A DNA stretch of 64,000 bases from Gammaproteobacteria bacterium (GTDB taxonomy: Bacteria; Pseudomonadota; Gammaproteobacteria; JAABTG01). The notes under the pieces are model-generated. The model saw only the letters and a program-made list of their open reading frames with translations, did no database searches and was not told where the DNA came from. Made by a program: the position numbers and the translations under genes. Below, piece after piece: positions 24,401 to 43,490 of this stretch. The stretch's first letter is position 1; each line of letters starts with the position of its first letter. Where the stretch lies: assembly GCA_034522055.1 (NCBI GenBank), contig JAXHLS010000006.1, positions 186,001 to 250,000 of the forward strand, given 5' to 3'.

Positions 24401-25015
24401 ATGGAGCCCCTGGTGCTGGTGGTGGACGACGAGGTGCGCAGCCTGGAGACCCTGGCGCGTATCCTCGACGAGGACTTCGAGGTGCGTACCGCCCCCGACG
24501 CCGACGTCCCTGATGGCTACACCTGGTGCAAGGCCCCGCGCCTCGGGGGGGCGGTGATGGAAGTGGGGGCCCTGGCGCGCCAGGCCGTGGACGGCCATCC
24601 CCTGATCCACGACCTCCTCGCCGGCGGCCAGAGCAACGTCAGGGCGCGGGTGGTGGCACGGCTGCTGGAGGTGGCCCGCACCATCCCGGCCATGGAGGCC
24701 TGGGCCCGCGCCCTGCGCCCCCGGGAGCCCTTCTGTGGCCACGGCCTCCTGGCGGAGGATGGCCGTGGCTACGGCGTCACCGAGGCGGCCCGGGGCAGCC
24801 TCGGCCACTGGTTACGGGTGGAAGGGGGGCGTATCGTCAACTACCAGATCATCGCCCCCACCACCTGGAACTTCTCGCCGCGGGACGCCGGCGGCACCCG
24901 GGGCGTGCTGGAACAGGCCCTCCTCGGCACCCGCGTCGATGACGGCAGGGACACCGTGGCGGTGCAGCACGTGGTGCGCTCCTTCGACCCGTGCATGGTG
25001 TGCACGGTCCATTGA
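24401..25015 (+). pseudogene. Fusion ORF: HoxA/HupR receiver N-terminus joined to HupV/HoxC C-terminus
   Basis: Residues 1-37 (VLVVDDEVRSLETLARILDE and a little more) are the start of an NtrC-type response regulator receiver, as in HoxA/HupR that drives hydrogenase promoters. From about codon 38 the protein becomes the last 167 residues of an H2-sensor large subunit: CKAPRLGG, EAARGSLGHWLRVEGG, APTTWNFSPRD and the end FDPCMVCTVH. Ending at the His without a cleavable tail is characteristic of the regulatory HupV/HoxC rather than catalytic HupL. The junction lies in GACGCCGACG-like microhomology shared with the copy at 37.86 kb. The open frame is unlikely to be functional. Confidence 0.8.
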
Positions 25016-25189: not shown

Positions 25190-25304
25190 TCATGGGTGAT
25201 CAGGGTGCCCCTGCCTTCGGGCACGCCTTGAGCCATCTGGGCCTCGTTCGTATGCCCTATGGTGTGATGGGCGACCAGGGCGTTTCCGGCGCTCATTATT
25301 TAAG

Positions 25305-25412
25305 GAATATGTTCACCTCATCCCGTATGTAGAAAGCGATGAGGAGGTATTTTTGAAAACAATCATTCCCAGCAGAAAATTTACCAAGCTATACCTTGGA
25401 GGTGAATCATGA
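25305..25412 (+). pseudogene. BrnT-family toxin, C-terminal remnant
   Basis: Last 36 or so codons ([20 protein letters not shown] and [15 protein letters not shown]) of the toxin whose full copy is at 40623-40901. The start is missing, so only its CopG partner remains intact at this copy. The TGA overlaps the ATG of the antitoxin. Confidence 0.8.
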
Positions 25413-25723
25413 CCAAAGGTAAGTTATCTAAAGAAGAGAAGGCTCTGCTTGATGCCGTCGAGACTGGAGAGTATGAATCAGTATTAACGGAATCTCGAAA
25501 AAAAGAATTAGAGGCAATTGCCAGCAACACGTTTAAAAAAGACAAAAGGATAAATATTCGAATCTCAAACAGAGATTTAACTGCTATCCAGTCAAGAGCA
25601 TCGGAAGAAGGTATTCCGTACCAAACTTTTGTGTCGAGCATTATTCACAAATACATTTCGGGCTCACTGCAAGATCTCACAGCTAACAAGCAAATGCAGC
25701 CGACGCAAAAAACGCGCGGCTGA
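25409..25723 (+). CDS. CopG/RHH-type antitoxin (partner of BrnT-like toxin), copy A
   Basis: 104 residues. Central DKRINIRISNRDLTAIQSRA and GIPYQTFVSSIIHKYISG form a ribbon-helix-helix DNA-binding domain as in COG5304 antitoxins. ATG 25409 has a GGAGGTGA ribosome site and overlaps the toxin stop. The C-terminal codons run into the attC site at 25681-25737, as is usual for cassette genes. An orphan antitoxin here could neutralise the toxin of copy B. Confidence 0.8.
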   Translation: MTKGKLSKEEKALLDAVETGEYESVLTESRKKELEAIASNTFKKDKRINIRISNRDLTAIQSRASEEGIPYQTFVSSIIHKYISGSLQDLTANKQMQPTQKTRG

Positions 25724-25737
25724 TTTGGGCGTTATGC
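25681..25737 (+). other. attC-like recombination site (57 bp)
   Basis: Inverse core AGCTAAC at 25681, core GTTATGC at 25731 (one departure from GTTRRRY), and imperfect complementary arms (GCAAATGCAGCCG / CGGCTGATTTGGGC) between them. It sits at the 3' end of the CopG gene. Confidence 0.65.
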
Positions 25738-25761
25738 GGTAACAAATCATCGAATGACACG

Positions 25762-25773
25762 CGTCACGTGACG
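25762..25773. promoter_or_regulatory. Perfect 12-bp palindrome upstream of higBA, probable operator
   Basis: CGTCACGTGACG lies 16 bp before the higB start codon. HigA-type antitoxins repress their own operon from short palindromes in this position. The same palindrome occurs in copy B at 41251-41262. Confidence 0.5.
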
Positions 25774-25788
25774 GACTACACATGACGC

Positions 25789-26070
25789 ATGTTCAAGATA
25801 TTTTCGGATCGACGTACCCAGGAACTGTACGCCACAGGCAAGGCCAAACGGTTTCCGGCAGATGTTGCCAAACGGGCTGCGCGCAAGTTGGAGTACGTCG
25901 ACTTGGCTACGCGGCTGGATGACCTGAAAGTTCCGCCTGGCAATCGCCTTCATGCACTGGAAGGTGACCGAAAGGGACAATACTCGATCTCGATCAATGA
26001 CCAGTGGCGCATCTGCTTCCGGTTTGTGGACGGCGACGCCTATGATGTCGAAGTTTGTGATTACCACTGA
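25789..26070 (+). CDS. higB: HigB-family toxin, copy A
   Basis: 93 residues from ATG 25789. RelE/HigB fold with RTQELYATGKAKRFP, LDDLKVPPGNRLHALEGDRK and QYSISINDQWRICFRF. These belong to ribosome-dependent mRNA interferases of the HigB/GraT type. The gene is first in a toxin-antitoxin operon, as is usual for HigBA. Copy B differs at residue 4 (Ile versus Thr). Confidence 0.9.
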   Translation: MFKIFSDRRTQELYATGKAKRFPADVAKRAARKLEYVDLATRLDDLKVPPGNRLHALEGDRKGQYSISINDQWRICFRFVDGDAYDVEVCDYH

Positions 26071-26084
26071 ACGAGGTGAGAAAG

Positions 26085-26399
26085 ATGAGCATTCCGAACA
26101 CAACCAGGAGCAAGCGACGGCCTACCCATCCGGGCGAGATGCTGCGTGAAGACTTTTTGCCGGATTATGGGCTGACTGTTTCCGGTTTGGCTGAAGCTGT
26201 GGGCGTCTCGCGACAGTCGATTAATGAGGTGCTGCGAGAGCGCCGGAGTGTCAGTCCGGAAATGGCTCTCCGGCTGGGACGGCTGTTCGGTAATTCTCCA
26301 GAATTCTGGCTGAACGCCCAACGGGCTGTGGATCTGTGGGATGCCGCGCAGGCAATTAAGAAAGATATGGCGCGTATCAAGCCGCTAAATGCCGCATAA
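26085..26399 (+). CDS. higA: HigA-family antitoxin, copy A
   Basis: 104 residues from ATG 26085, preceded by GAGGTGAG; an in-frame GTG at 26076 is a weaker alternative. RRPTHPGEMLREDFLPDYGL followed by the XRE helix-turn-helix (LAEAVGVSRQSINEVLRERR) is the HigA signature. It binds HigB and represses the operon. The stop lies inside the attC inverse core. Copy B differs by Ala to Asp in EM(A/D)LRLGRLFG. Confidence 0.92.
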   Translation: MSIPNTTRSKRRPTHPGEMLREDFLPDYGLTVSGLAEAVGVSRQSINEVLRERRSVSPEMALRLGRLFGNSPEFWLNAQRAVDLWDAAQAIKKDMARIKPLNAA

Positions 26400-26453
26400 C
26401 AAGCCCATCCAGCCGATGCCAAAAAACGGTGCGGCTGATGGGCGGCGTTGAAC
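26394..26453 (+). other. attC-like recombination site (60 bp)
   Basis: Inverse core GCATAAC (26394-26400), core GTTGAAC (26447-26453, fits GTTRRRY). Long complementary arms: GCCCATCCAGCCGATGCC against GGTGCGGCTGATGGGC. The folded bottom strand would form the hairpin recognised by integron integrases. Confidence 0.85.
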
Positions 26454-27340
26454 TAAACCGCTACGCGGTAGCTCCCCTTCGATAAACGCCGGCGGTTCTT
26501 CCGTCGCCAACACTCTCAGTTGACCCGATGTGGGTCTGACGGAGAGGAGAGACGACGATGACAGCCTTGCGTCAGCAGATGATTGATGCCATGCGCCAGC
26601 GTGGCTTTTGAGTGGGTGGTCTACACCAAACACTGTCTCGACCATACCGCCACCGTCGTCGACTACCTGGCCCGTTACACCCACCGCATCGCGATCACCC
26701 CAGCGCGGATCCTCGCGGTCGACGACGAACGGGTGACCATCCGGTACAAGGACTACCGCGACCGTGACCGACATAAGACATTGACCCTGGAGGGCGAAGA
26801 GTTCGTGCGCCGCTGCCTGATGCATGTCCTGCCGAAAGGGCTGATGCGCATTCGTCACTTCGGCTTCCTGGCCAACCGCGGCCGCCGGGAGAAGCTCGCC
26901 CGGATCCGTGAGGCACTGGCCGTCCCCGTCCCACCGGAGAAGGACGATGGCACCGCACACCACGACGGTGTCGACTATGCCTGCCCGCAGTGCCCGACCG
27001 GGCGGCTGTACGTAATCGCGCAGATTGCGCCCAGTCGAGCATCCTGAAGACCGCCCGACACGCGACACTGAGGCTGTAAAACAGGATAAAGGCCTGCGGT
27101 CTTAACCGAGGTGGGACGGCCCCGCAGCGGGGCCGCGGTTGCGCTCGTCCGGACATTGGATTTTGCCGAGAAATGGCGAGAGAATAACCACCCATCGCAC
27201 ATCGCAGGGACCGAAGACATGGACGAAGACGCCTCACCGGCCACGACCACCGCCCCAATCTGCGCCACCGCCGGCGCATCGCACCCACCCCGCGCCATAC
27301 ATTTCCCTATAGATCAGTCCGTGCCGGTCTGATGGGCGGC
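26454..27340 (+). mobile_element. Deleted IS91-family element, copy A
   Basis: Starts TAAACCGCTACGCGGTAGC immediately after GAAC of the attC core; GAAC is a described IS91 target. At 26558 begins MTALRQQMIDAMRQRGF, the start of the tyrosine-recombinase-like gene that accompanies some IS91 elements. After 17 codons the sequence jumps into the IS91 transposase C-terminus (YTKHCLDHTATVVDYLARYT, KGLMRIRHFGFLANRGRR). The catalytic Tyr region is lost, so the element is non-autonomous. It ends near 27340, just before the next attC. Confidence 0.8.
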
Positions 27341-27343
27341 TTA

Positions 27344-27399
27344 GTCCAACAGACATTTATTCGCCATGCTGCGCACGGCGGATAAATGCTTATAAGTTA
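27344..27399 (+). other. attC site split by group II intron I
   Basis: Inverse core GTCCAAC (27344-27350, fits RYYYAAC), arms CATTTATTCGCC and GGCGGATAAATG, then GTTA at 27396-27399. The intron begins next. Joining GTTA to the three bases after the intron (GGC, 29399-29401) restores a perfect GTTAGGC core. Confidence 0.85.
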
Positions 27400-29398
27400 T
27401 CGCGCCGAGCAAAGCTCGGCGTCTCTTGCGGGGTGGAAGTCCCCGTCGGGCAAGGGTTAGCCACCCACCCGTATCGAGTGTTGATCTCAATGAGGAGCGG
27501 GGCAACCCGCGAACGATAAGTGAGGTAAGCGTACACAGAGAATCCTGTAGGCCGTAGGGGTGGTCGCGCACCCTGAAGTGCTGGTACAGCTTCGAAATAA
27601 GCTTATTGCGGATGTCGACAGTTTTAACTTGCTGGAAGACAACACGAAGCGCCCGGAATGGCTTGGGTGTGGAGGTCCGCCGGAGTCCACAGGCCGTGGC
27701 ATGCAGGAAGAGAGGCGCCGTAGAACTCGGGAAGCCCCGCAAGCTCCTGAACGAGGTGAAGCCATGAAACCGACAGAGCTGGGACACGCAAGGGTGAAGA
27801 GCCTGGACACGGCGTATGCTCCGGTGGAGGGGCCGAACAGGGAACGGACAGGCAGGCCGGGAACGGCCGCATGCGAACGGGGTGTCTTATCGGGCATAGT
27901 AGTCGGAGGTTGGGAAAGCCAGCCACAAGGCGAAGGACCCGACGGGAGTACGCAGCCCGCAAAGGAAACTCGTGCCGGACACGTTGGATCGGATCAACAT
28001 GAGCCCACCTCACTGCGGGGAATAGCCAAACGGGCGAAAGCCTGTAAACACCATCGCTTTCGCGACCTTTACCGGGAAGTGAATGCCGAACTTCTGCTGC
28101 ATTGCTGGCAGGCACTGAACAAGGATGCTGCCAGCGGTGTGGATGGACTGACGGCGGCGGCCTATGGTGAGAACCTGATGGCCAATATTGCTGACCTGGC
28201 GGAGCGTGTGAAAGCTAAACGCTATCGAGCAAAGCTCGTACGGCGTGTTTACATCCCCAAGGAGAATGGAAAACAAAGGCCGCTGGGTATCCCGGCGCTG
28301 GAAGACAAGCTCGTGCAACTGGCCTGTGCCAAGCTGCTGACGGCGATCTACGAAAGCGACTTTCTGGATAGCAGTTACGGCTACCGGCCGGGTCGAAGCG
28401 CCAAGGAAGCAGTGTGTGACCTCACGTTTCGTCTGCAATTCGGGAGCTATGGCTACCTGGTCGAGGCGGACATACGGGGGTTTTTCGATCACATGGACCA
28501 CGACTGGCTTCTGGAGATGTTGTCGTTACGGATCGACGACCGCGCCTTTGTGCACTTGATCCGGAAATGGCTGAAAGCCGGGATACTGGAGACCGATGGA
28601 CAGGTACTCCATCCCGGAGCGGGCACCCCGCAAGGCGGGATCATCTCCCCGGTGCTTGCCAACCTCTACCTGCATCACGTGCTGGACCTCTGGTTCGAAC
28701 GTGTATTCAGGCCCCGTTGCCGGGGCGAGGTAATGCTGTGCCGATATGCCGATGATTTTGTCTGTGCGTTTCGTTATCAGGAAGATGCGGAGCGGTTCTT
28801 CGAGATGCTACCGCTACGGCTGGGAAAGTTCGGCCTGGAGGTGGCGCCGGAGAAGACGCGGATCGTGCGCTTTAGTCGATTTCATCTGAGCATGGAACGC
28901 CGGGTCACCTTTCTGGGTTTCGAACTGTACTGGTTCCGGGACCGCAAGGGTAAGCCGCGCGTCATGCGTCGAACCGCTCGCAAGAAGTTGCAAGGCGCGT
29001 GTCGTCGCATCAAGGTGTGGATTAAGGGCAACCGGCATCTGCCGGGCAGGGAGTTTGTACGGGGACTGAATCGTCGCCTGGTGGGGCATTACAACTACTA
29101 CGGTCTGCGGGGCAACTCGCGGTCGTTATGGCGGTTCTATCAATGGGCCATGGAGTGTGCATTCAAGTGGCTGAATCGGAGAGGCGGGAAGCGCAAGAGT
29201 TTCACCTGGCAGGCATTCGCCGGTGCCGTGGAAAAGCTCGGAATCGCCAAACCCCGCATTACCGAACGGCCCTCTGCACGGCGGGTGTTTGCATGAAGCC
29301 TATCGACCGCGCGAAAGCGAGTACAACCGAGGAACCGGATGCGGGAAAACCGCACGTCCGGGACTGTGCCGGGGGCGCCGGGTAACCGGCGTCCCTAC
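27400..29398 (+). mobile_element. Group II intron I, inserted in an attC core
   Basis: About 2.0 kb. Domain I-like sequence starts at 27400 (GCGCCGAGCAAAGCTCGGCG hairpin). It encodes a maturase/RT and ends with domain V (29331-29364, stem closed by a GAAA tetraloop) and a domain VI hairpin (GGCGCCGGGTAACCGGCGTC) finishing CCCTAC at 29398. Boundaries follow from comparison with the uninterrupted attC in copy B and from restoration of GTTAGGC. With this boundary the 5' end reads UCGCG, not the usual GUGYG. Confidence 0.85.
27764..29296 (+). CDS. ltrA: Group II intron reverse transcriptase/maturase
   Basis: 510 residues from ATG 27764 (GAGGTGA upstream). RT blocks: VYIPKENGKQRPLGIPALED, YGYRPGRSAKEAV, VEADIRGFFDHMDHDWL, GTPQGGIISPVLANLYLHHV, and the active site CRYADDFVC. 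A thumb/maturase X domain with RRLVGHYNYYGLRGNSRSL follows. There is no C-terminal HNH endonuclease motif, so mobility probably uses a nicking-independent or hairpin-targeting route. The frame is open upstream to 27560, but that part overlaps intron RNA structure. Confidence 0.93.
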   Translation: MKPTELGHARVKSLDTAYAPVEGPNRERTGRPGTAACERGVLSGIVVGGWESQPQGEGPDGSTQPAKETRAGHVGSDQHEPTSLRGIAKRAKACKHHRFRDLYREVNAELLLHCWQALNKDAASGVDGLTAAAYGENLMANIADLAERVKAKRYRAKLVRRVYIPKENGKQRPLGIPALEDKLVQLACAKLLTAIYESDFLDSSYGYRPGRSAKEAVCDLTFRLQFGSYGYLVEADIRGFFDHMDHDWLLEMLSLRIDDRAFVHLIRKWLKAGILETDGQVLHPGAGTPQGGIISPVLANLYLHHVLDLWFERVFRPRCRGEVMLCRYADDFVCAFRYQEDAERFFEMLPLRLGKFGLEVAPEKTRIVRFSRFHLSMERRVTFLGFELYWFRDRKGKPRVMRRTARKKLQGACRRIKVWIKGNRHLPGREFVRGLNRRLVGHYNYYGLRGNSRSLWRFYQWAMECAFKWLNRRGGKRKSFTWQAFAGAVEKLGIAKPRITERPSARRVFA

Positions 29399-29419
29399 GG
29401 CGGAGGCATTGGGGGGTGG

Positions 29420-30436
29420 ATGAGCCTAGTACAGTTTCCGAGTCGGTGCGACGAGAAGTCGGTCTTTGCATTTTGCTCCGAGGTCGAATCCCACTCTGGT
29501 AGAGAAATCGTCACCATAGATTTCTCGTCTATGGGACGGATTGAGCCATTCACGATGGTTTATATCGCGAACCGGATTCGGGACTTCAACAGGAGTAACC
29601 GGGGAACCAGAGTTAGGTGCCGCGGATTTCGCGAAAAAGACTACGCCGCGAACATGGCGTTCTTCCGAGCCTTCGGGTTAAAGCACGGGAGAGAGCCGAG
29701 CGAGGTCCCAGGCAATGATCGATTTGTTCCCTTCACCATCCTGAGAACAAAAACGATCGTTGACGAGGCATCCCGGGAGTGGGAGGTTCCTCAGGAAATT
29801 GTTGAGCGGCGTGCGGAGCACTTGGCGACGGTCCTGTCTCGGAACGAGTCGGAGAATCTTCTGGACGCCCTGACGTTCTCCATCCGGGAGATAATGAGAA
29901 ACGTAGTTGAGCACAGCAGATCAAAGGCCATCGAGTACTGCGCCCAGTACTGGCCAACGTACCACCGCGTTGAGATCGCGATACTAGACAACGGCATGGG
30001 CCTGAAGGAGTCGCTTTCTTCGAACCCCTACGTCGAGGTGGAATGCGACTCGGACGCAATCCAACAGGCACTGATGCCGGCCATCTCCAGTAAGAACTAC
30101 GCTGGCGCCAGAATCAACACAAAAGACCCTTGGCACAACTCGGGATTCGGCTTGTACATGAGTAACCGGATCTGCAGGTTAGGCGGAAGCTTCCTGATAT
30201 GCAGCGGCGACCACGCAATAAGACTGGATGAGAACGGCAAGGAACATATAGACCTCGGGCACCACTGCCAAGGGACCGCTGTAAGGATGGTTCTGAACAC
30301 AAGTAAGCTAGCCTCACTCAGCGGCATGTTGCAGCAGTTCCGCTCGGAAGGGTATGAAGTAGCTAGGCAGATAAAAGGCGTCGGTGTTTATGCGGCCTCG
30401 GCGGCATCCCAGATGCTATCACGAGACTTTCAGTAG
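29420..30436 (+). CDS. STAS-like/GHKL ATPase protein (cassette-borne, function unknown)
   Basis: 338 residues from ATG 29420, directly behind the intron. Residues about 1-95 look STAS-like (VTIDFSSMGRIEPFTMVYIA). Residues about 170-310 form a GHKL ATPase: N box REIMRNVVEHSRS, G1 ILDNGMGLKES, G2 NSGFGLYMSNRI and a late GT (CQGTAVRMVL). No histidine-phosphotransfer helix or receiver is present, so it is more like an anti-sigma/ATPase switch than a classic kinase. Cassette position suggests a self-contained function; I do not know which. Confidence 0.75.
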   Translation: MSLVQFPSRCDEKSVFAFCSEVESHSGREIVTIDFSSMGRIEPFTMVYIANRIRDFNRSNRGTRVRCRGFREKDYAANMAFFRAFGLKHGREPSEVPGNDRFVPFTILRTKTIVDEASREWEVPQEIVERRAEHLATVLSRNESENLLDALTFSIREIMRNVVEHSRSKAIEYCAQYWPTYHRVEIAILDNGMGLKESLSSNPYVEVECDSDAIQQALMPAISSKNYAGARINTKDPWHNSGFGLYMSNRICRLGGSFLICSGDHAIRLDENGKEHIDLGHHCQGTAVRMVLNTSKLASLSGMLQQFRSEGYEVARQIKGVGVYAASAASQMLSRDFQ

Positions 30437-30550: not shown

Positions 30551-31286
30551 TTATACCACTAACAGATACATTAAAAGACTAAATTAGGAGTACATCATGT
30601 CCATATTTGAAAATCTTAGCACAGTTCTTAATGTGTTATTTCTCATCATGGTGGGAGTGTGGGTGCCTTTATTCTTCTATTATTATTTTAAACGTCTTGA
30701 TCGTCGTAAGGAGCAACATCTTTTAAGAGAAATGGAAGAATTTAAGTACGATAGAGACAGAAAATACAGATATATGAGTAACAATGATGCTGATATTGAA
30801 AGGTATATTCCAAAACTCTTAGAGGAAATACCTTACAGAACATCAAAGGAAGTGTCTCAAGTAGTGTCTGAACAAATATATAAAATAATAAAAGATGGCC
30901 TCCAAGAACAATCATTACAGCTTACAAACAAGATTGATAGTTATCAAACCAATGAAAATAGCCATTTCACAAGTAATAAGCAGCTTATTCGGGAGATAGC
31001 TCATTCATTAAATACTCCACTTTCACAAATTGAAGCATCAGCTGAAATTCTTGCAACTTCATTCGATCTTGACAGTAAGAATTCCAAAACAATTAATTCA
31101 ATAAAATCAAGTGTCGATTTATGCAAGGCTTTTATTTCAGCATACCGTCAGATGATTTTAGTAACTGGTTATAGCGGAGGTTGGGAACCGAAATCTATAA
31201 AAGAATCTATATTGTCAGCTTGCGAAATTTATTCAGAATCAGTTAATGCAAACTTAGATATTAAGGTCGAAGTGCCTAATAAAATA

Positions 31287-32694
31287 GGCTCTTCAGGAAA
31301 ATTTGTGGGTAAAAACGTAGATAACTAGCACTCCAGGGATGCAAATTTAGATTTTATTAGGGGAAGCGCATCCTGCTCCCTAACTCTGAGATGATGGAAG
31401 TACGACCAACCGTCAATCAGAAAAAGGAGCGAGGATGCAAGTCAAGACTATCCTTAATCGAGTCCAGAAATTCAAATCTTTTGTGTACGGCGCCATCCGT
31501 TGGGTAGATGGCACGGAGGTGCCGACAATCGAGGCCGAACTCCACCCTCGCGGTAATGGGCGGCCGGAGTGCTCGAGGTGCGGCCGGCGCAGGCCGGGTT
31601 ACGACACATTGCCGGTTCGAAGATTTGAGTTTATTCCGGTGTGGGGTATTAAGGTGTTTTTTCTCTATGCGCCACGCCGCGTCGACTGTCCAAGCTGTGG
31701 CATCGTGGTGGAGCGGATGCCTTGGGCCGAAGGCAAACATCGCCTGACCGAGGCCTATGCCTGGTTTCTGGCGAGCTGGGCCAAACGCCTGAGCTGGAAG
31801 GAAGTCGCTGAAGCCTTTCGCACCAGTTGGGACCATGTGTTCTGCTCGGTCGAGATGGCTGTCACCTGGGGCCGGGAACATAGAGACCTGTCGGGCATTA
31901 AAGCTATTGGTATCGATGAGATCCAATGGCAGAGGGGCCACAAGTACCTCACGCTGGTTTACCAGATCGACGTTGGCTGTAAACGGTTGCTGTGGATCGG
32001 CAAGAAACGGAAGGTCAAAACTTTGTTGGGATTCTTCCGGTGGCTTGGCAAGGAACGAACCGCCGATTTGCGCTATATCTGCAGCGATATGTGGAAGCCC
32101 TACCTGAGGGTGATCGCCAAGAAGGCGGGAGGTGCACTCCACATCCTGGACCGGTTCCACATCATGGCGCACTTGAGTAAAGCGATCGATGAGGTGCGGG
32201 CCGGGGAGGCCAAGGAGCTGAAGAAAAGAGGCTACGATCCGGTACTGACGAAGACCCGCTGGCTGCTGCTCAAGCGTCCGGAGAATCTGACGGAGAAACA
32301 GGAGACCAAACTGGCGGATCTGCTGCAGTACAATTTGAAGTCGGTCAGAAGCTATCTGCTCAAAGAGGAGTTTCAGCTCTTCTGGTCGTATCAGTCGCCC
32401 TATTGGGCCGGTGAGTTCCTGGATAAGTGGTGTACGAAAACGATGCGTTCCAAGATTGAGCCGATGAAGAAGGTGGCCCGCATGCTGAGAAACCATCGGC
32501 CCCTGCTGCTGAACTGGTTCCGGGCAAAAAAGCAGTTTTCGAGCGGCATTGTCGAAGGTTTCAATAACAAAGCGAAACTGACCACCAGAAAAGCATATGG
32601 CTTCAGGACTTATCATGCGGCAGAAATCGCTTTATATCATGCGCTTGGAGCATTACCTGTCCCGGAAACCGCCCACGAATTTTTCTGACGAGGC
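31287..32694 (+). mobile_element. Complete ISL3-family insertion sequence with 8-bp target duplication
   Basis: 1408 bp. Inverted repeats: left GGCTCTTCAGGAAAATTTGT, right (reverse complement) GCCTCGTCAGAAAAATTCGT, imperfect. ATAAAATA flanks it on both sides (31279-31286 and 32695-32702), the 8-bp duplication size typical of ISL3. Intact transposase inside. Insertion appears recent because the duplication is perfect and the interrupted kinase frame is otherwise undamaged. Confidence 0.93.
31435..32688 (+). CDS. ISL3-family transposase
   Basis: 417 residues. N-terminal zinc-finger-like cysteines (CSRCGRRRPGYD, VDCPSCGIVVERMPW) and a DDE domain: IKAIGIDEIQWQRGHKYLT, CSDMWKPYLRVI and the C-terminal SGIVEGFNNKAKLTTRKAYG, the ISL3 signature. 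AAGGAGCGAGG precedes ATG 31435. Confidence 0.93.
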   Translation: MQVKTILNRVQKFKSFVYGAIRWVDGTEVPTIEAELHPRGNGRPECSRCGRRRPGYDTLPVRRFEFIPVWGIKVFFLYAPRRVDCPSCGIVVERMPWAEGKHRLTEAYAWFLASWAKRLSWKEVAEAFRTSWDHVFCSVEMAVTWGREHRDLSGIKAIGIDEIQWQRGHKYLTLVYQIDVGCKRLLWIGKKRKVKTLLGFFRWLGKERTADLRYICSDMWKPYLRVIAKKAGGALHILDRFHIMAHLSKAIDEVRAGEAKELKKRGYDPVLTKTRWLLLKRPENLTEKQETKLADLLQYNLKSVRSYLLKEEFQLFWSYQSPYWAGEFLDKWCTKTMRSKIEPMKKVARMLRNHRPLLLNWFRAKKQFSSGIVEGFNNKAKLTTRKAYGFRTYHAAEIALYHALGALPVPETAHEFF

Positions 32695-33025
32695 ATAAAA
32701 TAAAAGGTTATTCGAATAATTATATTGTAGCACTACTACTGCCATTGATAGAGAATGCCGCAGAGGCAGCAAAACCAGGTACAGAACTCGATATCAATTT
32801 TCATCAGAAGAACGGGTACAATGTTATTAGGGTAACTAACACAACAGAATTATTGCCCGGCGGCAAAGAAATATTTGACGCTGAATTTTCAACTAAAAAT
32901 GGACACCACGGCCTTGGTTTAAGCACTGTCAAGAGTCTTCTTGAAAGCATTGAGGGCGCTTTAATTGATTACACGATAAATGGAGATAAAATAACTTTCG
33001 AGCTTAAGCTAAGAGGTGCAGAATA

Positions 33026-34009
33026 ATGAGCATAGATATTCTTTTTGTTGATGATGACAAAAAAGCTGCTGAAACATTTGCTCAACTTGTCGAGGCGAAA
33101 ACCAATTTAAAGACTGAGTTCACCTCTGATCCTGAGGAGGCTCTTTCCTTATTAAAAGAATATCCTATTAAGGTTGTTGTTCTTGATCAAGAGATGCCGC
33201 TAAAAAAAGGAACAGAGCTTTATAAGCAGATGATAAATATTGATAACAATATTAAAGCAATAATGTTAACTGGTGAAGCCACAGCAAGTGAAGCTGGTGA
33301 GTCGCTAAAATTAGGTTATAATTGTTATCTTGAAAAGGGAAATATATCTGAACTGCCGAAGGAAGTTTTGAATCTTGTCGCGTTATATGAATTGCATCTA
33401 ATAGCAAAGCAACCAAGCCAAACTCGTAAACTAATATTCACGCAAAGAAAAGGAATATTTCTTAAAACGAGGATCGATTATTTTTTAATATCTTTCGAGG
33501 TCATTGATGCTAATTATATACAACCCGATTCATGGAAAACTGTAGTTACAATAAATGCCGGAGAAAAAATTCGTCACAAGGAAACAATAGAGGTGTGTCA
33601 CAAAATCACTATTGACAAAGAATCTGAGGCAAAGCTTAAAGGAACACTAGAACTCAGCCATGACGCTGTTGTGAAGTTAAAGTCAAAATTGGAGTCTTCT
33701 CTTTCTGAAAAATATAAATTCAGTGAATCCACAGAACAAAAAAAGCAGATTGAAATCGAGAAAGAATACAGTTTACCTCAGGAAGATTCCGATCCACAAA
33801 AACTTGCTGTTAAGTCAAGGCATTACCTTATTGCACCAGTGTATGTAAAATATAGGCTATTTCTCTTATTAAAATGTAAAGAATCCAATCTCTCACAGAT
33901 ATTTCCATTAGATATTACTAAAGAAACAAACAGGGTTGCTACAAAACAAATTGACTATTTAAGTGATGGCACAAAAACAGAATTGACCACCGGATTTATA
34001 AACAGCTAA
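33026..34009 (+). CDS. Response regulator with unclassified C-terminal output domain (cassette-borne)
   Basis: 327 residues. Residues 1-120 are a receiver: acidic DDD at about 9-11, phospho-acceptor Asp in KVVVLDQEMPL, Thr in AIMLTGEA and Lys in CYLEKG. Residues 121-327 contain no helix-turn-helix, GGDEF or ATPase motif that I recognise. They comprise a strand-rich part (GIFLKTRIDYFLISFEVID), a charged Lys/Glu helical stretch, and another strand-rich end. AT-rich like its kinase partner. Output could be protein-protein or membrane-directed; unknown. Confidence 0.85.
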   Translation: MSIDILFVDDDKKAAETFAQLVEAKTNLKTEFTSDPEEALSLLKEYPIKVVVLDQEMPLKKGTELYKQMINIDNNIKAIMLTGEATASEAGESLKLGYNCYLEKGNISELPKEVLNLVALYELHLIAKQPSQTRKLIFTQRKGIFLKTRIDYFLISFEVIDANYIQPDSWKTVVTINAGEKIRHKETIEVCHKITIDKESEAKLKGTLELSHDAVVKLKSKLESSLSEKYKFSESTEQKKQIEIEKEYSLPQEDSDPQKLAVKSRHYLIAPVYVKYRLFLLLKCKESNLSQIFPLDITKETNRVATKQIDYLSDGTKTELTTGFINS

Positions 34010-35439: not shown

Positions 35440-37440
35440 GTCTGTCCGTATGCCGTAACAGGCTGATTAACTAGCGGGTTAGAGTCCCGCCAAAGGAGTT
35501 GCTCGTACACCTTTGTAGTGTCGCGGAGCGGCGTCCGGGTAACCGGGGGTCGTAAGTTACGTAGATGCAAAACCGCAGGCCGCAGCGCAAGCGAACCGAG
35601 ATGTAGCCTCGTGAACAAAGTGAAGATGCCGACCCGGTGGACAGTCGGGGAAGGCCGCTGTTGGTGGGAGGAGACAACGAGAGCGTCCCACTGAGTCTTC
35701 CGGGGTAGTACGGGTGACATGTGGTGGAAGTTGATTGGTCCCAGTGCGGGAGGCCCGCGGCGGTGGCAGGTGAGAACTGCCGACGGTGGCGTATAAGGCC
35801 AGTCCGAAGTCGTCATCGACCGTCGTGGGAGTCGGAGGGGTTCATAGTACCGATTGAGGGTCTGGGACAACATAACCCGACCTGAGGGAAGGGACCCTAC
35901 TTTGTGCACGCAACCGAAACGCAGAGGGTCAGGAGATTGCGGCGATGTCGCTAACAACTCCGGAAAAGATCAGGACGCTGCAGAGGAAGCTCTACGTCAA
36001 GGCCAAGCAAGAGCCGGCGTTTCGCTTCTACGCCTTGTATGACGAGGTCTATCGGGCAGACACTCTCGGTCACGCCTATGATCGTGTCAGGTCCAATCGG
36101 GGCGCGCCAGGAATCGATGGTGTGACCTGTGAGGCCATCGAGGCGGGGGTCGGAAGAGACGCCTACTTGGCGGAATTGCAACGGGAACTGGAGCAGAAGA
36201 CGTACGGCGCGGACGGCGTGCGTCGGGTCTGGATACCCAAGCCGGATGGCAGTGAGCGCCCATTGGGGATCCCCACAATCCGGGATCGGATCGTACAGAT
36301 GGCGCTCAAGCTGGTGGTGGAGCCGATCTTCGAGGCTGATTTCTGCGAGCACTCCTATGGATTTCGCCCGCAGCGTTCGGCCCATGATGCGGTGAAGGCC
36401 GTCACCGACGGCCTGTTTCAGGGAAAGACCCAAATCATCGATGCGGATCTATCGAAGTATTTCGATACGATCCCGCACGCCAAGCTCATGGCCGTGGTTG
36501 CCGAGCGCCTTGCCGATGGGGGCGTCCTCGCCCTCATTCAGCAATGGCTCAAGGCCCCGGTCATCGAAGAGGATGGGCGAGGCAAGCAACGCCCGAGTGG
36601 CGGTAAAGGGAATCGGAAAGGGACGCCGCAAGGCGGGGTTGTTTCCCCGCTGCTGGCCAATCTTTATCTACATCTGCTGGACCGGATTTGGGAACGGCAC
36701 GACTTGGAACGACGGTTAGGGGCGCGCCTCGTGCGTTACGCTGACGATGCCGTGATTCTGTGTCGTGGGGACACCGCGCCGGCCATGGCGGTGCTTGAGA
36801 CGGTGCTGACACGCCTGGAGTTGACGCTCAACCGGGAGAAAACCCACGTGGTCGATGCCCGCCGACAGGCGTTCGACTTTCTTGGCTTCAGCATCAAATG
36901 GGCCCGCAGCCGACGAACCGGCAACGGCTACCCTCACGTTGAGCCGAGCCGCCGCGCCGAACGAAGGATCAAGGCGCGCATCAAGGAACTCACCGCGCGG
37001 CGCCGCACCCCGGTGCCGATGCCGCGTATGATCACGGAAGTGAACCAAGTGCTACGCGGCTGGTCGGGCTACTTCCACTACGGCAACTGCACCAAGGCTT
37101 TCGGACGCGTCTGGTGGTTCACTGAGGAACGCGTGCGTACCCAACTGCGGCGGCGTCACAAAGTGCGCACTCGCACGCGCGGTTACGAACGCTTTCCCTA
37201 CGCCCACCTCCACGACGCCCTTGGATTACCCAAGCTATCCCACAAAGCAGGCTGGCGCTCAGCGCATGCCTTGGCGTGAAGCACATCGGAAAGCCGTGTA
37301 CGGGAGAACCGTATGCACGGTTTGATGAGGGAGGGCTGGCCCTGGTGGCTAGGGCCCGGCTATTTAGGCACCGCCAAACGAAAGGGGCGGGAACCGCTAA
37401 GCCGGACCTACGGGCGTTAGGGCCTGCTCTCTACTCTACC
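35440..37440 (+). mobile_element. Group II intron II (approximate limits)
   Basis: 35400-35944 is gene-free and consists of GC-rich hairpins typical of a group II intron 5' half (for example CTAGCGGGTTAGAGTCCCGC). An RT/maturase follows. Domain V is clear at 37290-37323 (AAAGCCGTG ... CACGGTTT with a GAGA-type loop), then a domain VI-like GC hairpin (GGGCTGGCCC). The 3' end is uncertain: either about 37365 or the CTACTCTAC at 37432-37440, immediately before the hupV fragment. Confidence 0.7.
35945..37279 (+). CDS. ltrA: Group II intron reverse transcriptase/maturase (second type)
   Basis: 444 residues from ATG 35945. Begins with TPEKIRTLQRKLYVKAKQEP, then RVWIPKPDGSERPLGIPTIR, CEHSYGFRPQRSAHDA, IIDADLSKYFDTIPH, GTPQGGVVSPLLANLYLH and the active site LVRYADDAVILCR. 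The GIIM maturase domain (VNQVLRGWSGYFHYGNCTKA) is present and no HNH nuclease is seen. It is distinct from the RT of intron I, so these are two independent acquisitions. Confidence 0.93.
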   Translation: MSLTTPEKIRTLQRKLYVKAKQEPAFRFYALYDEVYRADTLGHAYDRVRSNRGAPGIDGVTCEAIEAGVGRDAYLAELQRELEQKTYGADGVRRVWIPKPDGSERPLGIPTIRDRIVQMALKLVVEPIFEADFCEHSYGFRPQRSAHDAVKAVTDGLFQGKTQIIDADLSKYFDTIPHAKLMAVVAERLADGGVLALIQQWLKAPVIEEDGRGKQRPSGGKGNRKGTPQGGVVSPLLANLYLHLLDRIWERHDLERRLGARLVRYADDAVILCRGDTAPAMAVLETVLTRLELTLNREKTHVVDARRQAFDFLGFSIKWARSRRTGNGYPHVEPSRRAERRIKARIKELTARRRTPVPMPRMITEVNQVLRGWSGYFHYGNCTKAFGRVWWFTEERVRTQLRRRHKVRTRTRGYERFPYAHLHDALGLPKLSHKAGWRSAHALA

Positions 37441-38373
37441 CTATTGTGTCTCGAGGTGGTACGCATCCTCGGCCTGCTCCATGGCTTCCGGCGTTTCCTC
37501 GAGGACACCCTGTTCGGCGACCGCCTGGAGGCGGTGGCCGCCCTGGACTCGGCGGCGGCCCTGGACTCGGCGGCGGCCCTGGACGAGTGGCGGGACGGGG
37601 CGGCGGGCCGTGGCGACATGGGCCGCTTCCTCGACGTGGCCGCTGCCCTGGGCCTTAAGGACCTGGGCACCGCGCCGGGGGCACTCCTGAGCTATGGGGC
37701 CTACCACGGCGACACCGGGCCTCTGTTCTCCCCGGGGGTGTGGCAAGGCGGGGCGGCGGCCCTGGACCTGGATGCCATCACCGAGGACGGCAGCCGCAGC
37801 TGGCTGGCCGGCGGGCCCTCCCCCGCCCATCCCTACGACGGCGCCACCGTGCCTGACGCCGATGCCCGTGATGGCTACACCTGGTGCAAGGCCCCGCGCC
37901 TCGGGGGGGTGGTGATGGAGGTGGGCGCCCTGGCGCGCCAGGCCGTGGACGGCCATCCCCTGATCCGTGACCTCCTGGCCGGCGGCCAGAGCAACGTCAG
38001 GGCGCGGGTGGTGGCACGGCTGCTGGAGGTGGCCCGTACCATCCCGGCCATGGAGACCTGGGCCCGCGCCCTGCGCCCCCGGGAGCCCTTCTGCGGCCAC
38101 GGCCGCCTGGCGGAGGATGGCCGCGGCCACGGCGTCACCGAGGCGGCCCGGGGCAGCCTCGGCCACTGGTTGCGGGTGGAGGGGGGCCGTATCGTCAACT
38201 ACCAGATCATCGCCCCCACCACCTGGAACTTCTCGCCGCGGGATGCCGGCGGCACCCGGGGCGTGCTGGAACAGGCCCTCCTCGGCACCCCCGTCGATGA
38301 CGGCAGGGACACCGTGGCGGTGCAACACGTGATGCGCTCCTTCGACCCGTGCATGGTGTGCACGGTCCATTGA
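37441..38373 (+). pseudogene. hupV: HupV/HoxC regulatory hydrogenase large subunit, C-terminal part (copy B)
   Basis: About 310 residues of an H2-sensor large subunit, beginning inside LEVVRILGLLHGFRRFLEDT right after the intron end. It continues through DGYTWCKAPRLGGVVMEVGA to the terminal FDPCMVCTVH without a C-terminal peptide. The N-terminal nickel-binding RxCGxC region is missing. An 18-bp tandem duplication (37541-37576) inserts LDSAAA-type residues. Both C-terminal nickel cysteines (CMVC) remain. It shares its last 168 codons with the fusion at 24401. Confidence 0.85.
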
Positions 38374-40622: not shown

Positions 40623-40901
40623 ATGAAAATCTATAATTGGAACGCTGATAAGAATCAGGATCTTATCGTCGGGCGGGGCGTTTCTTTTGAAGAGGCGGTC
40701 TTTTACATTGAGAATGGTGGCCTATTAGATGACATTACTCATCCAAACGCCTCTGATTACCCCAACCAACGGATTTTTGTTATTTGTATTAAAGAATATG
40801 TTCACCTCATCCCGTATGTGGAAAGCGATGATGAGGTATTTCTGAAAACAATCATTCCCAGCAGAAAATTTACCAAGCTATACCTTGGAGGTGAATCATG
40901 A
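40623..40901 (+). CDS. BrnT-like toxin (COG2929 type), complete copy
   Basis: 92 residues. [20 protein letters not shown] and [13 protein letters not shown], then [20 protein letters not shown] and [15 protein letters not shown] follow the BrnT/COG2929 RNase-like fold. It overlaps the CopG-type antitoxin gene by 4 nt (ATGA), toxin first. Truncated to its last 36 codons in copy A. Confidence 0.8.
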
Positions 40902-41212
40902 CCAAAGGTAAGTTATCTAAAGAAGAGAGAGCTCTGCTTGATGCCGTCGAGACTGGAGAGTATGAATCAGTATTAACGGAATCCCGCAAAAAGGAATTAG
41001 AGGCAATTGCCAGCAACACATTTAAAAAAGACAAAAGGATAAATATTCGAATCTCAAACAGAGATTTAACTGCTATCCAGTCAAGAGCATCGGAAGAAGG
41101 TATTCCGTACCAAACTTTTGTGTCGAGCATTATTCACAAATACATTTCGGGCTCACTGCAAGATCTCACAGCTAACAAGCAAATGCAGCCGACGCAAAAA
41201 ACGCGCGGCTGA
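40898..41212 (+). CDS. CopG/RHH-type antitoxin, copy B
   Basis: 104 residues, nearly identical to copy A at 25409 (one Lys to Arg change seen near residue 11). Ribbon-helix-helix in DKRINIRISNRDLTAIQSRA. Partner of the upstream toxin. The 3' end overlaps attC 41170-41226. Confidence 0.8.
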   Translation: MTKGKLSKEERALLDAVETGEYESVLTESRKKELEAIASNTFKKDKRINIRISNRDLTAIQSRASEEGIPYQTFVSSIIHKYISGSLQDLTANKQMQPTQKTRG

Positions 41213-41226
41213 TTTGGGCGTTATGC
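41170..41226 (+). other. attC-like recombination site (57 bp), copy B
   Basis: Same sequence as 25681-25737: AGCTAAC to GTTATGC with complementary arms, following the CopG gene. Confidence 0.65.
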
Positions 41227-41277
41227 GGTAACAAATCATCGAATGACACGCGTCACGTGACGGACTACACATGACGC

Positions 41278-41559
41278 ATGTTCAAGACATTTTCGGATCG
41301 ACGTACCCAGGAACTGTACGCCACAGGCAAGGCCAAACGGTTTCCGGCAGATGTTGCCAAACGGGCTGCGCGCAAGTTGGAGTACGTCGACTTGGCTACG
41401 CGGCTGGATGACCTGAAAGTTCCGCCTGGCAATCGCCTTCATGCACTGGAAGGTGACCGAAAGGGACAATACTCGATCTCGATCAATGACCAGTGGCGCA
41501 TCTGCTTCCGGTTTGTGGACGGCGACGCCTATGATGTCGAAGTTTGTGATTACCACTGA
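41278..41559 (+). CDS. higB: HigB-family toxin, copy B
   Basis: 93 residues, MFKTFSDRRTQELYATGKAK, differing from copy A by Ile to Thr at residue 4. It is preceded by the same 12-bp palindrome (41251-41262). Having two HigBA copies in one array should make loss of either one tolerable. Confidence 0.9.
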   Translation: MFKTFSDRRTQELYATGKAKRFPADVAKRAARKLEYVDLATRLDDLKVPPGNRLHALEGDRKGQYSISINDQWRICFRFVDGDAYDVEVCDYH

Positions 41560-41573
41560 ACGAGGTGAGAAAG

Positions 41574-41888
41574 ATGAGCATTCCGAACACAACCAGGAGC
41601 AAGCGACGGCCTACCCATCCGGGCGAGATGCTGCGTGAAGACTTTTTGCCGGATTATGGGCTGACTGTTTCCGGTTTGGCTGAAGCTGTGGGCGTCTCGC
41701 GACAGTCGATTAATGAGGTGCTGCGAGAGCGCCGGAGTGTCAGTCCGGAAATGGATCTCCGGCTGGGACGGCTGTTCGGTAATTCTCCAGAATTCTGGCT
41801 GAACGCCCAACGGGCTGTGGATCTGTGGGATGCCGCGCAGGCAATTAAGAAAGATATGGCGCGTATCAAGCCGCTAAATGCCGCATAA
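41574..41888 (+). CDS. higA: HigA-family antitoxin, copy B
   Basis: 104 residues from ATG 41574. Same XRE antitoxin as copy A with one Ala to Asp change (EMDLRLGRLFG) at the end of the DNA-binding domain. The stop lies in the attC inverse core. Confidence 0.92.
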   Translation: MSIPNTTRSKRRPTHPGEMLREDFLPDYGLTVSGLAEAVGVSRQSINEVLRERRSVSPEMDLRLGRLFGNSPEFWLNAQRAVDLWDAAQAIKKDMARIKPLNAA

Positions 41889-41942
41889 CAAGCCCATCCA
41901 GCCGATGCCAAAAAACGGTGCGGCTGATGGGCGGCGTTGAAC
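41883..41942 (+). other. attC-like recombination site (60 bp), copy B
   Basis: GCATAAC to GTTGAAC with GCCCATCCAGCCG / CGGCTGATGGGC arms, same as 26394-26453. The IS91-type element again starts directly after GAAC. Confidence 0.85.
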
Positions 41943-42829
41943 TAAACCGCTACGCGGTAGCTCCCCTTCGATAAACGCCGGCGGTTCTTCCGTCGCCAAC
42001 ACTCTCAGTTGACCCGATGTGGGTCTGACGGAGAGGAGAGACGACGATGACAGCCTTGCGTCAGCAGATGATTGATGCCATGCGCCAGCGTGGCTTTTGA
42101 GTGGGTGGTCTACACCAAACACTGTCTCGACCATACCGCCACCGTCGTCGACTACCTGGCCCGTTACACCCACCGCATCGCGATCACCCCAGCGCGGATC
42201 CTCGCGGTCGACGACGAACGGGTGACCATCCGGTACAAGGACTACCGCGACCGTGACCGACATAAGACATTGACCCTGGAGGGCGAAGAGTTCGTGCGCC
42301 GCTGCCTGATGCATGTCCTGCCGAAAGGGCTGATGCGCATTCGTCACTTCGGCTTCCTGGCCAACCGCGGCCGCCGGGAGAAGCTCGCCCGGATCCGTGA
42401 GGCACTGGCCGTCCCCGTCCCACCGGAGAAGGACGATGGCACCGCACACCACGACGGTGTCGACTATGCCTGCCCGCAGTGCCCGACCGGGCGGCTGTAC
42501 GTAATCGCGCAGATTGCGCCCAGTCGAGCATCCTGAAGACCGCCCGACACGCGACACTGAGGCTGTAAAACAGGATAAAGGCCTGCGGTCTTAACCGAGG
42601 TGGGACGGCCCCGCAGCGGGGCCGCGGTTGCGCTCGTCCGGACATTGGATTTTGCCGAGAAATGGCGAGAGAATAACCACCCATCGCACATCGCAGGGAC
42701 CGAAGACATGGACGAAGACGCCTCACCGGCCACGACCACCGCCCCGATCTGCGCCACCGCCGGCGCATCGCACCCACCCCGCGTAATACATTTCCCTATA
42801 GATCAGACCGCGCCGATCTGATGGGCGGT
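41943..42829 (+). mobile_element. Deleted IS91-family element, copy B
   Basis: Carries the same internal deletion as copy A: MTALRQQMIDAMRQRGF stop, then the transposase C-terminus at 42072-42536. The block was therefore duplicated after the deletion. Confidence 0.8.
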
Positions 42830-42850
42830 TTAGTCCAACAGACATTTATT

Positions 42851-43443
42851 GTCCATCAGAAGGTTAAAACCACCGGCTTTAGCCGGTCAGCTTTAGCTGA
42901 GAGAATGGGCCGCCATACGTAGAGTAGGCGGGATGGATTACAGATACGGCAGCCATACGGTTTACCAGATCGAGTACCACTTTGTGTGGGTGACGAAGTA
43001 CCGCTACCACGTTCTGAGGGGGGATGTGGCGGAGCGAGTGCGAGAGCTTGTTCGTCAGACGTGTGAGGCGTTTGAGATCCGCATTGTACGGGGGGTGGTG
43101 AGCAAGGACCACGTGCACATATTGGTGAGTGCGCCGCCGAATTTGGCGCCGAGCGAGATTATGCGTCGGATCAAGGGGCGGACATCGAGCTACCTGTTTG
43201 AGGAATTCCCGCACCTCAAGAAGAGGTACTGGGGTCGGCATTTCTGGGCACGAGGGTACTTCTGCGCGACGGTTGGGCAGATGACCGAGGAGATGATCAA
43301 GGAGTATCTGGAGCATCACTTTGAGCCCAATCCAAACGATAATTTCAGAATGGAGCCGGATTAGACGCGTCGTTTAGCCGACGCGTATCCGGACTTTCAG
43401 TCCGTTACTCAAACCCACCGGCTTTAGCCGGTGGTTGTTTAGT
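42851..43443 (+). mobile_element. IS200/IS605-family insertion sequence
   Basis: 593 bp, limits set by comparison with the empty site in copy A (one-base ambiguity). Subterminal hairpins typical of the family: ACCGGCT-TT-AGCCGGT at 42872-42887 and CCACCGGCTTTAGCCGGTGG at 43415-43434. There are no terminal inverted repeats or target duplication. It contains tnpA only. Confidence 0.92.
42933..43364 (+). CDS. tnpA: IS200/IS605 Y1 transposase TnpA
   Basis: 143 residues. HUH motif in DHVHILVSAPP. The conserved N-terminal YHFVWVTKYRYHVLRGD and the C-terminal helix with the nucleophilic Tyr (EMIKEYLEHHF) are present. Acts on single-stranded DNA by peel-and-paste transposition. Full length. Confidence 0.95.
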   Translation: MDYRYGSHTVYQIEYHFVWVTKYRYHVLRGDVAERVRELVRQTCEAFEIRIVRGVVSKDHVHILVSAPPNLAPSEIMRRIKGRTSSYLFEEFPHLKKRYWGRHFWARGYFCATVGQMTEEMIKEYLEHHFEPNPNDNFRMEPD

Positions 43444-43490
43444 CGCCATGCTGCGCACGGCGGATAAATGCTTATTAGTTAGCACTTCCT

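Follow-up and report, generated by a model that had tools for sequence, protein, structure and literature searches.

Introduction

Group II introns associated with integrons fall into more than one class. Those of the group IIC-attC type are characterized by a stem-loop upstream of IBS1, an EBS1-IBS1 pairing of 3-4 bp, a TTGT/T site in the bottom strand of attC and an orientation opposite to that of the cassettes. Group IIB introns are also known beside attC sites, one of them in cassette orientation (PMC7923331), and a bacterial class E intron has been reported in an integron of Shewanella saliphila JCM 32304 (PMC9229058). Regarding the catalytic core of group II introns, a contact between the first and the penultimate nucleotide is established, and the G of the domain V triad has been called invariant in a review, the exchange G359A having inactivated the intron of O. 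iheyensis (PMC3669008).

Here, we analyse a group II intron from a gammaproteobacterial genome of 5.14 Mb, located in a window of 64,000 nt (contig C6, positions 186001-250000) and described in a preliminary way as an insertion into an attC core. The sequence comparisons instead suggest, with a probability of about 85%, a mobile class E (IIB) intron without endonuclease which targets a hairpin followed by (C/A)GTTR, has hit two right ends of IS91-family elements and carries a remodelled core.

Results

Identity and boundaries of the intron

The preliminary description was right in recognizing a group II intron whose RT lacks an HNH endonuclease: a ribozyme of domains I-VI is combined with an RT/maturase ORF (RF02005, 115 bits; TIGR04416, 351 bits; Table 1), and profile searches of the RT returned the RT domain and a weak maturase (GIIM) match, but none to HNH. 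The RT is likely to start at the ATG at 27764, shortly 3' of a GAGGTG motif, which would give the 510 aa listed. The structure assignment covered EBS1 and D5-D6, the latter matching RF00029 with 23.7 bits, which is under the cut-off of 40.

Table 1. Features of the intron and its insertion site (positions of the window).
Feature	Position	Strand	Basis
Complete group II intron, 2005 nt, 5'-UCGCG...CGGCGGA-3'	27400-29404	+	EBS1-IBS1 pairing; D6 tail covariation; identity to C4 copy (2005/2005), first difference at 29405
Ribozyme domain I region	27436-27696	+	Rfam RF02005, 114.9 bits
EBS1 UAACUU	27625-27630	+	Alignment of 5' regions; covariation with IBS1
IBS1 AAGTTA (5' exon), including the IS-end flank GTTA	27394-27399	+	6/6 pairs with EBS1; C4 copy 5/6
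Intron-encoded RT/maturase, 510 aa, YADD, no HNH	27764-29296	+	TIGR04416, 351 bits; RVT_1, 122 bits
Domain V, triad A-A-C at 29333-29335	29332-29364	+	cmscan alignment; clade table
Domain VI, bulged (branch) A at 29397, tail CGGCGGA at 29398-29404, penultimate G	29365-29404	+	Covarying D6-tail pairing, 12 tail types
3' exon start GGC	29405-29407	+	First position unlike C4 copy
IS91-family internal-deletion derivative	26447-27396	+	Left 171 bp and right ~797 bp of full copies; NF033538 remnant, 137 bits
IS right-end segment previously read as attC: GTCCAAC at 27344-27350, hairpin with 12-bp stem at 27354-27365/27377-27388	27344-27388	+	13 copies; fold z = -2.6
Copy B: same upstream genes and IS91 derivative, intron-free, IS200/IS605-family element in hairpin, flank GTTAGCA	40789-43481	+	Genome comparison

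The ends of the intron deviate from the canonical 5' GUGYG and 3' RAY and read UCGCG and GGA, respectively, which we regard as a variant, because the combination of U1 with a penultimate G is a trait of the entire clade. For comparison, 80 relatives of the intron RT were collected from public genomes, while viral contigs yielded none. About 20 of these relatives show the 5' junction (C)GTTA/GTGCG and the closest ones GTTA/TCGCG, with one start of TAGCG in locus L060. Over the 32 loci with a readable EBS1 loop, EBS1 and IBS1 share a mean of 5.47 out of 6 pairs, compared to 4.89 after permutation (none of 2000 permutations was as high), and the covariation extends to sites other than GTTR, as in the combinations ATCTTG/CAAGAT and CTCGAC/GTCGAG. 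The aligned junctions and the covarying 6-bp pairing thus corroborate the previously proposed 5' end at 27400 together with its UCGCG start, which had rightly been flagged as needing attention and is genuine. A truncated 5' end was rejected, as the intron starts of the relatives (GTGCG) align to this position. The orientation parallel to the neighbouring genes, which had been flagged as well, is also correct, but does not represent an anomaly, because such an orientation has been reported for a IIB (CL1) intron associated with an integron (PMC7923331).

On the other hand, the 3' end had been set at 29398 and has to be moved by 6 nt, because these nucleotides form covarying pairs with domain VI and do not differ between the window and a second copy of the intron on contig C4. 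A tail of 7 nt follows the branch A of domain VI in 52 loci; its first four positions, which occur in 12 versions, form pairs with the 5' strand of this domain (3.94 of 4 pairs versus 3.59 after permutation), and its last three conform to RAY in the relatives outside the clade of the window intron. Together with the identity of the C4 copy exactly up to 29404, these features define the 3' end. The joining of the flanks to GTTAGGC, from which both boundaries had been deduced, is correct as a sequence, and is retained with the new end only because GGC recurs in the 3' exon; the joined flanks of the C4 copy read GTTATGC. Downstream, the ATG of a HATPase-like gene follows at 29420, 15 nt past the intron. 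Further downstream (30597-33026), a histidine kinase gene is split by a transposase-like ORF (31435-32688) and followed by a response regulator.

The intron lies at an IS91-family right end

The presumed attC site represents the right end of an element of the IS91 family, as the 56 bp flanking the intron on the left recur at many sites of the genome as the end of a 2.42-kb element, 13 copies of which continue into unrelated DNA. The first nucleotides beyond this end are GTTN in 11 of the 13 copies, corresponding to the subterminal hairpin and GTTC-like tetranucleotide of IS91 ori ends, where a flanking GTTN is expected. Full copies (~2.42 kb) encode a tyrosine recombinase, scoring 172-176 bits with TIGR02249 and thereby under its cut-off of 265, and an IS91-type HUH Y2 transposase (NF033538, 415 bits; cut-off 125). 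Among the IS91-family elements with attC-like right ends are those at ~49.8-52.2 kb of contig C6 (L042, 1778-4198) and ~3517.6-3520.0 kb of contig C2 (L047, 1588-4003); the best score of their tyrosine recombinase is that of integron integrase, below the cut-off, and one copy has the recombinase joined to the transposase in a single ORF of 661 aa.

It is very improbable that the intron resides in a genuine integron attC, either of a CALIN or of a cassette array. The motif GTCCAAC...GTTAGGC does fit the R''/R' consensus, the relatives L058 and L060 are located in real attC arrays, and the genome contains a C-terminal IntI fragment. However, a complete GTTRRRY occurs next to only one of the 13 IS ends, namely that of the window, the C4 insertion yields GTTATGC instead, and the IS ends occur singly, with no cassette array or integrase seen beside the site. 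The IntI fragment (C2:1575537-1575896, L009) matches a genuine integron integrase with 203 bits over profile positions 194-313 and represents the only strong IntI remnant of the genome.

The order of events might also have been reversed, with an IS91-family element inserting beside the 5' exon of a resident intron, considering that the right ends of IS91 adjoin GTTN and that IBS1 ends in GTTA. This would require two events at exactly the same position, and the A at position -5 of IBS1, which pairs with a U of EBS1, is contributed by the IS, whereas the attC-inserted relatives show a C-G pair there; we therefore give this sequence of events hardly any credit compared to entry of the intron into existing IS ends.

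The paralogous copy B is indeed free of the intron, as reported before, but its hairpin is not intact, being interrupted by an IS200/IS605-family element. In both units (25300-27396 and 40789-43481), a CopG-like antitoxin gene and HigBA precede the shared IS91 deletion derivative, and the right flanks differ, which fits a one-ended IS91 mobilisation of toxin-antitoxin genes.

Further intron copies in the genome

The intron copy on contig C4 (34784-36788) does not differ from that of the window at any of its 2005 positions, but the IS ends on the left share only 85% identity (239 of 281 columns) and the right flanks are unrelated, which identifies the two as independent insertions. The C4 IS end shows a compensatory change from A-T to C-G in its stem, and its target TAGTTA leaves one of the six EBS1-IBS1 positions unpaired. 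A third copy on contig C2 (3436415-3438861) is a relic in three pieces, located after GCGTTG and without an IS end, which has kept the EBS1 UAACUU. Copying by reverse splicing appears to be the best account of the three copies. No second genome was found to carry the window intron at an IS91 end.

The window also harbours a second group II intron (35481-37439) with an RT of 444 aa, which lies close to a partial hydrogenase-like ORF (37276-38373) resembling another one at 24401-25015. In total, the 5.1-Mb genome shows 41 RVT_1 matches, many of them in identical families; this unusually heavy load probably consists mostly of group II introns.

Target choice

Many relatives are inserted after CGTTA, some of them in true attC sites. 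The earlier assumption of attC targeting therefore applies to the lineage, as L058 and L060 occupy attC sites of cassette arrays with further copies nearby, but not to the present locus, where an IS91-family end was hit. The 90 nt upstream of introns at GTTR sites fold more stably than control windows (median z of -1.27 versus -0.4, p = 1.6e-4), with a hairpin of z < -2 at only 10 of the 25 sites. Four relatives from Bacillota (L064, L091, L120, and L133) follow GTTR and appear to lie inside a tnpB-like open frame, not after an attC.

The EBS1 of most attC-inserted relatives is UAACG. Since the nearest relative L057 possesses a UAACGU fitting CGTTG/A, and the window intron a UAACUU fitting AAGTTA, the intron may have been retargeted from attC to IS91 ends. 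L059 from another genome, located at an AGTTA hairpin, also shows UAACUU. The C2 relic, which combines UAACUU with a GCGTTG exon, fits poorly with such a retargeting.

Lineage and class

In the RT tree, the window intron falls into a clade (99/93) with L083, which is the protein of S. saliphila JCM 32304. Together with the missing HNH endonuclease, this affiliation points to the bacterial class E (IIB) lineage, a label taken from L083 as the single published anchor. The IIC proteins GsI-IIC and that of E. rectale are found across a 97/99 branch, their exact place being unsure because of long branches. The affiliation with group IIC suggested in the preliminary description can therefore be rejected, since the RT does not group with the IIC proteins, the EBS1 pairing comprises 6 nt and the triad is neither CGC nor AGC. 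A stem-loop upstream of IBS1, as typical for IIC-attC introns, is present in the form of the IS-end hairpin.

An AAC triad in the catalytic core

Domain V of the window intron contains the triad AAC instead of AGC or CGC, and the facing A is replaced by G wherever domain V is readable within the clade. This pattern, GAACC...GG(A/T)C, is shared by the C4 copy, the C2 relic, L057-L061, L067, and L124, as well as L103 as judged by eye, whereas AGC is present in all remaining relatives whose domain V is readable, with a facing A in nearly all cases. The AAC group is monophyletic in the RT tree (97/88), with L062, lacking an identifiable domain V, inside it; L124 was not part of the tree. Within this clade, U1 is combined with a penultimate G wherever both ends are known (seven loci), and L061 retains G1 with A, the combination found in the relatives outside the clade. 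Each of these covariations counts only once, as they correspond to single events on the tree. A search of 398 genomes of the same phylum retrieved the AAC pattern from this genome only, with its three copies. In the literature on AGC triads and on IS91 elements with introns, as far as covered, we found no report of an AAC triad or an intron at an IS91 end.

These sequence data are also compatible with AAC copies which are dead and passively copied by DNA recombination, especially as the exchange of the triad G by A was inactivating in O. iheyensis (PMC3669008) and a relic is found among the three copies of this genome. We consider this unlikely, given that AAC is common to a clade whose members come from several phyla, have intact RTs in several cases and show a matching change of the facing base, and that two identical copies are joined to unrelated right flanks. 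The AAC clade rather looks recently mobile, and the recent copying suggests that its core is capable of splicing.

Discussion

The proposed intron would recognise a DNA hairpin together with the (C/A)GTTR motif behind it and reverse-splice after the latter, probably into transiently single-stranded DNA. In this genome, it would have entered two different IS91-family copies at their right (ori) ends, where the terminal hairpin and the GTTA flank may mimic the R' half of an attC. The EBS1 UAACUU in place of UAACG would serve this purpose, as it fits (A/T)AGTTA of the IS end. Splicing and branching would proceed with a remodelled core, in which U1 is combined with a penultimate G and the AAC of domain V faces a G. 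We lean, by a small margin, towards a naturally active lineage in which the facing purine compensates for the AAC triad, U1 is coupled to the penultimate G, and hopping occurs between attC and IS91 ori ends via hairpin and GTTR.

Because it combines a compensating opposite base with a coupled change at both splice sites, the AAC clade offers a natural test of the active-site needs of group II introns and of the AGC of spliceosomal U6, and the AAC core is the part most worth experiments. Moreover, the targeting of attC-like hairpins reaches beyond IIC introns and integrons and includes the ends of IS91-family elements, and introns could either travel with these gene-mobilising elements or block them.

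Among known systems, the class E (IIB) introns in or near integrons of S. saliphila JCM 32304 (PMC9229058) and Halorhodospira halochloris (H.ha.F1/F2; PMC7923331) share the upstream hairpin or attC with the window intron, the RT of which also lacks an endonuclease and belongs to the same clade as that of S. saliphila. It differs from them by its IS91-family site, the UCGCG start with a penultimate G, the AAC triad and an EBS1 fitting AGTTA rather than CGTTA. In common with the IIC-attC introns of the S.ma.I2 type, it is endonuclease-less and located beside an attC-like hairpin, but it belongs to another RT clade, shows a 6-bp EBS1 pairing, follows the orientation of the neighbouring genes, is not inserted at TTGT/T and contains AAC instead of CGC. 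The intron UHB.I2 from a hypersaline integron (CL1/IIB1, UUGCG..GU; PMC7923331) likewise combines U1 with a penultimate G, lies after an attC and shows the same orientation; however, it is reported with a normal AGC triad and belongs to a different RT class. The triad partner, a G replacing A in the AAC clade, is a U in the intron of O. iheyensis (PMC3669008). Finally, the insertion site resembles IS91-family elements with an accessory tyrosine recombinase in its Y2 transposase, terminal hairpin and GTTN beside the right end, differing from the full elements in that the window copy is an internal deletion with an intron at its right end.
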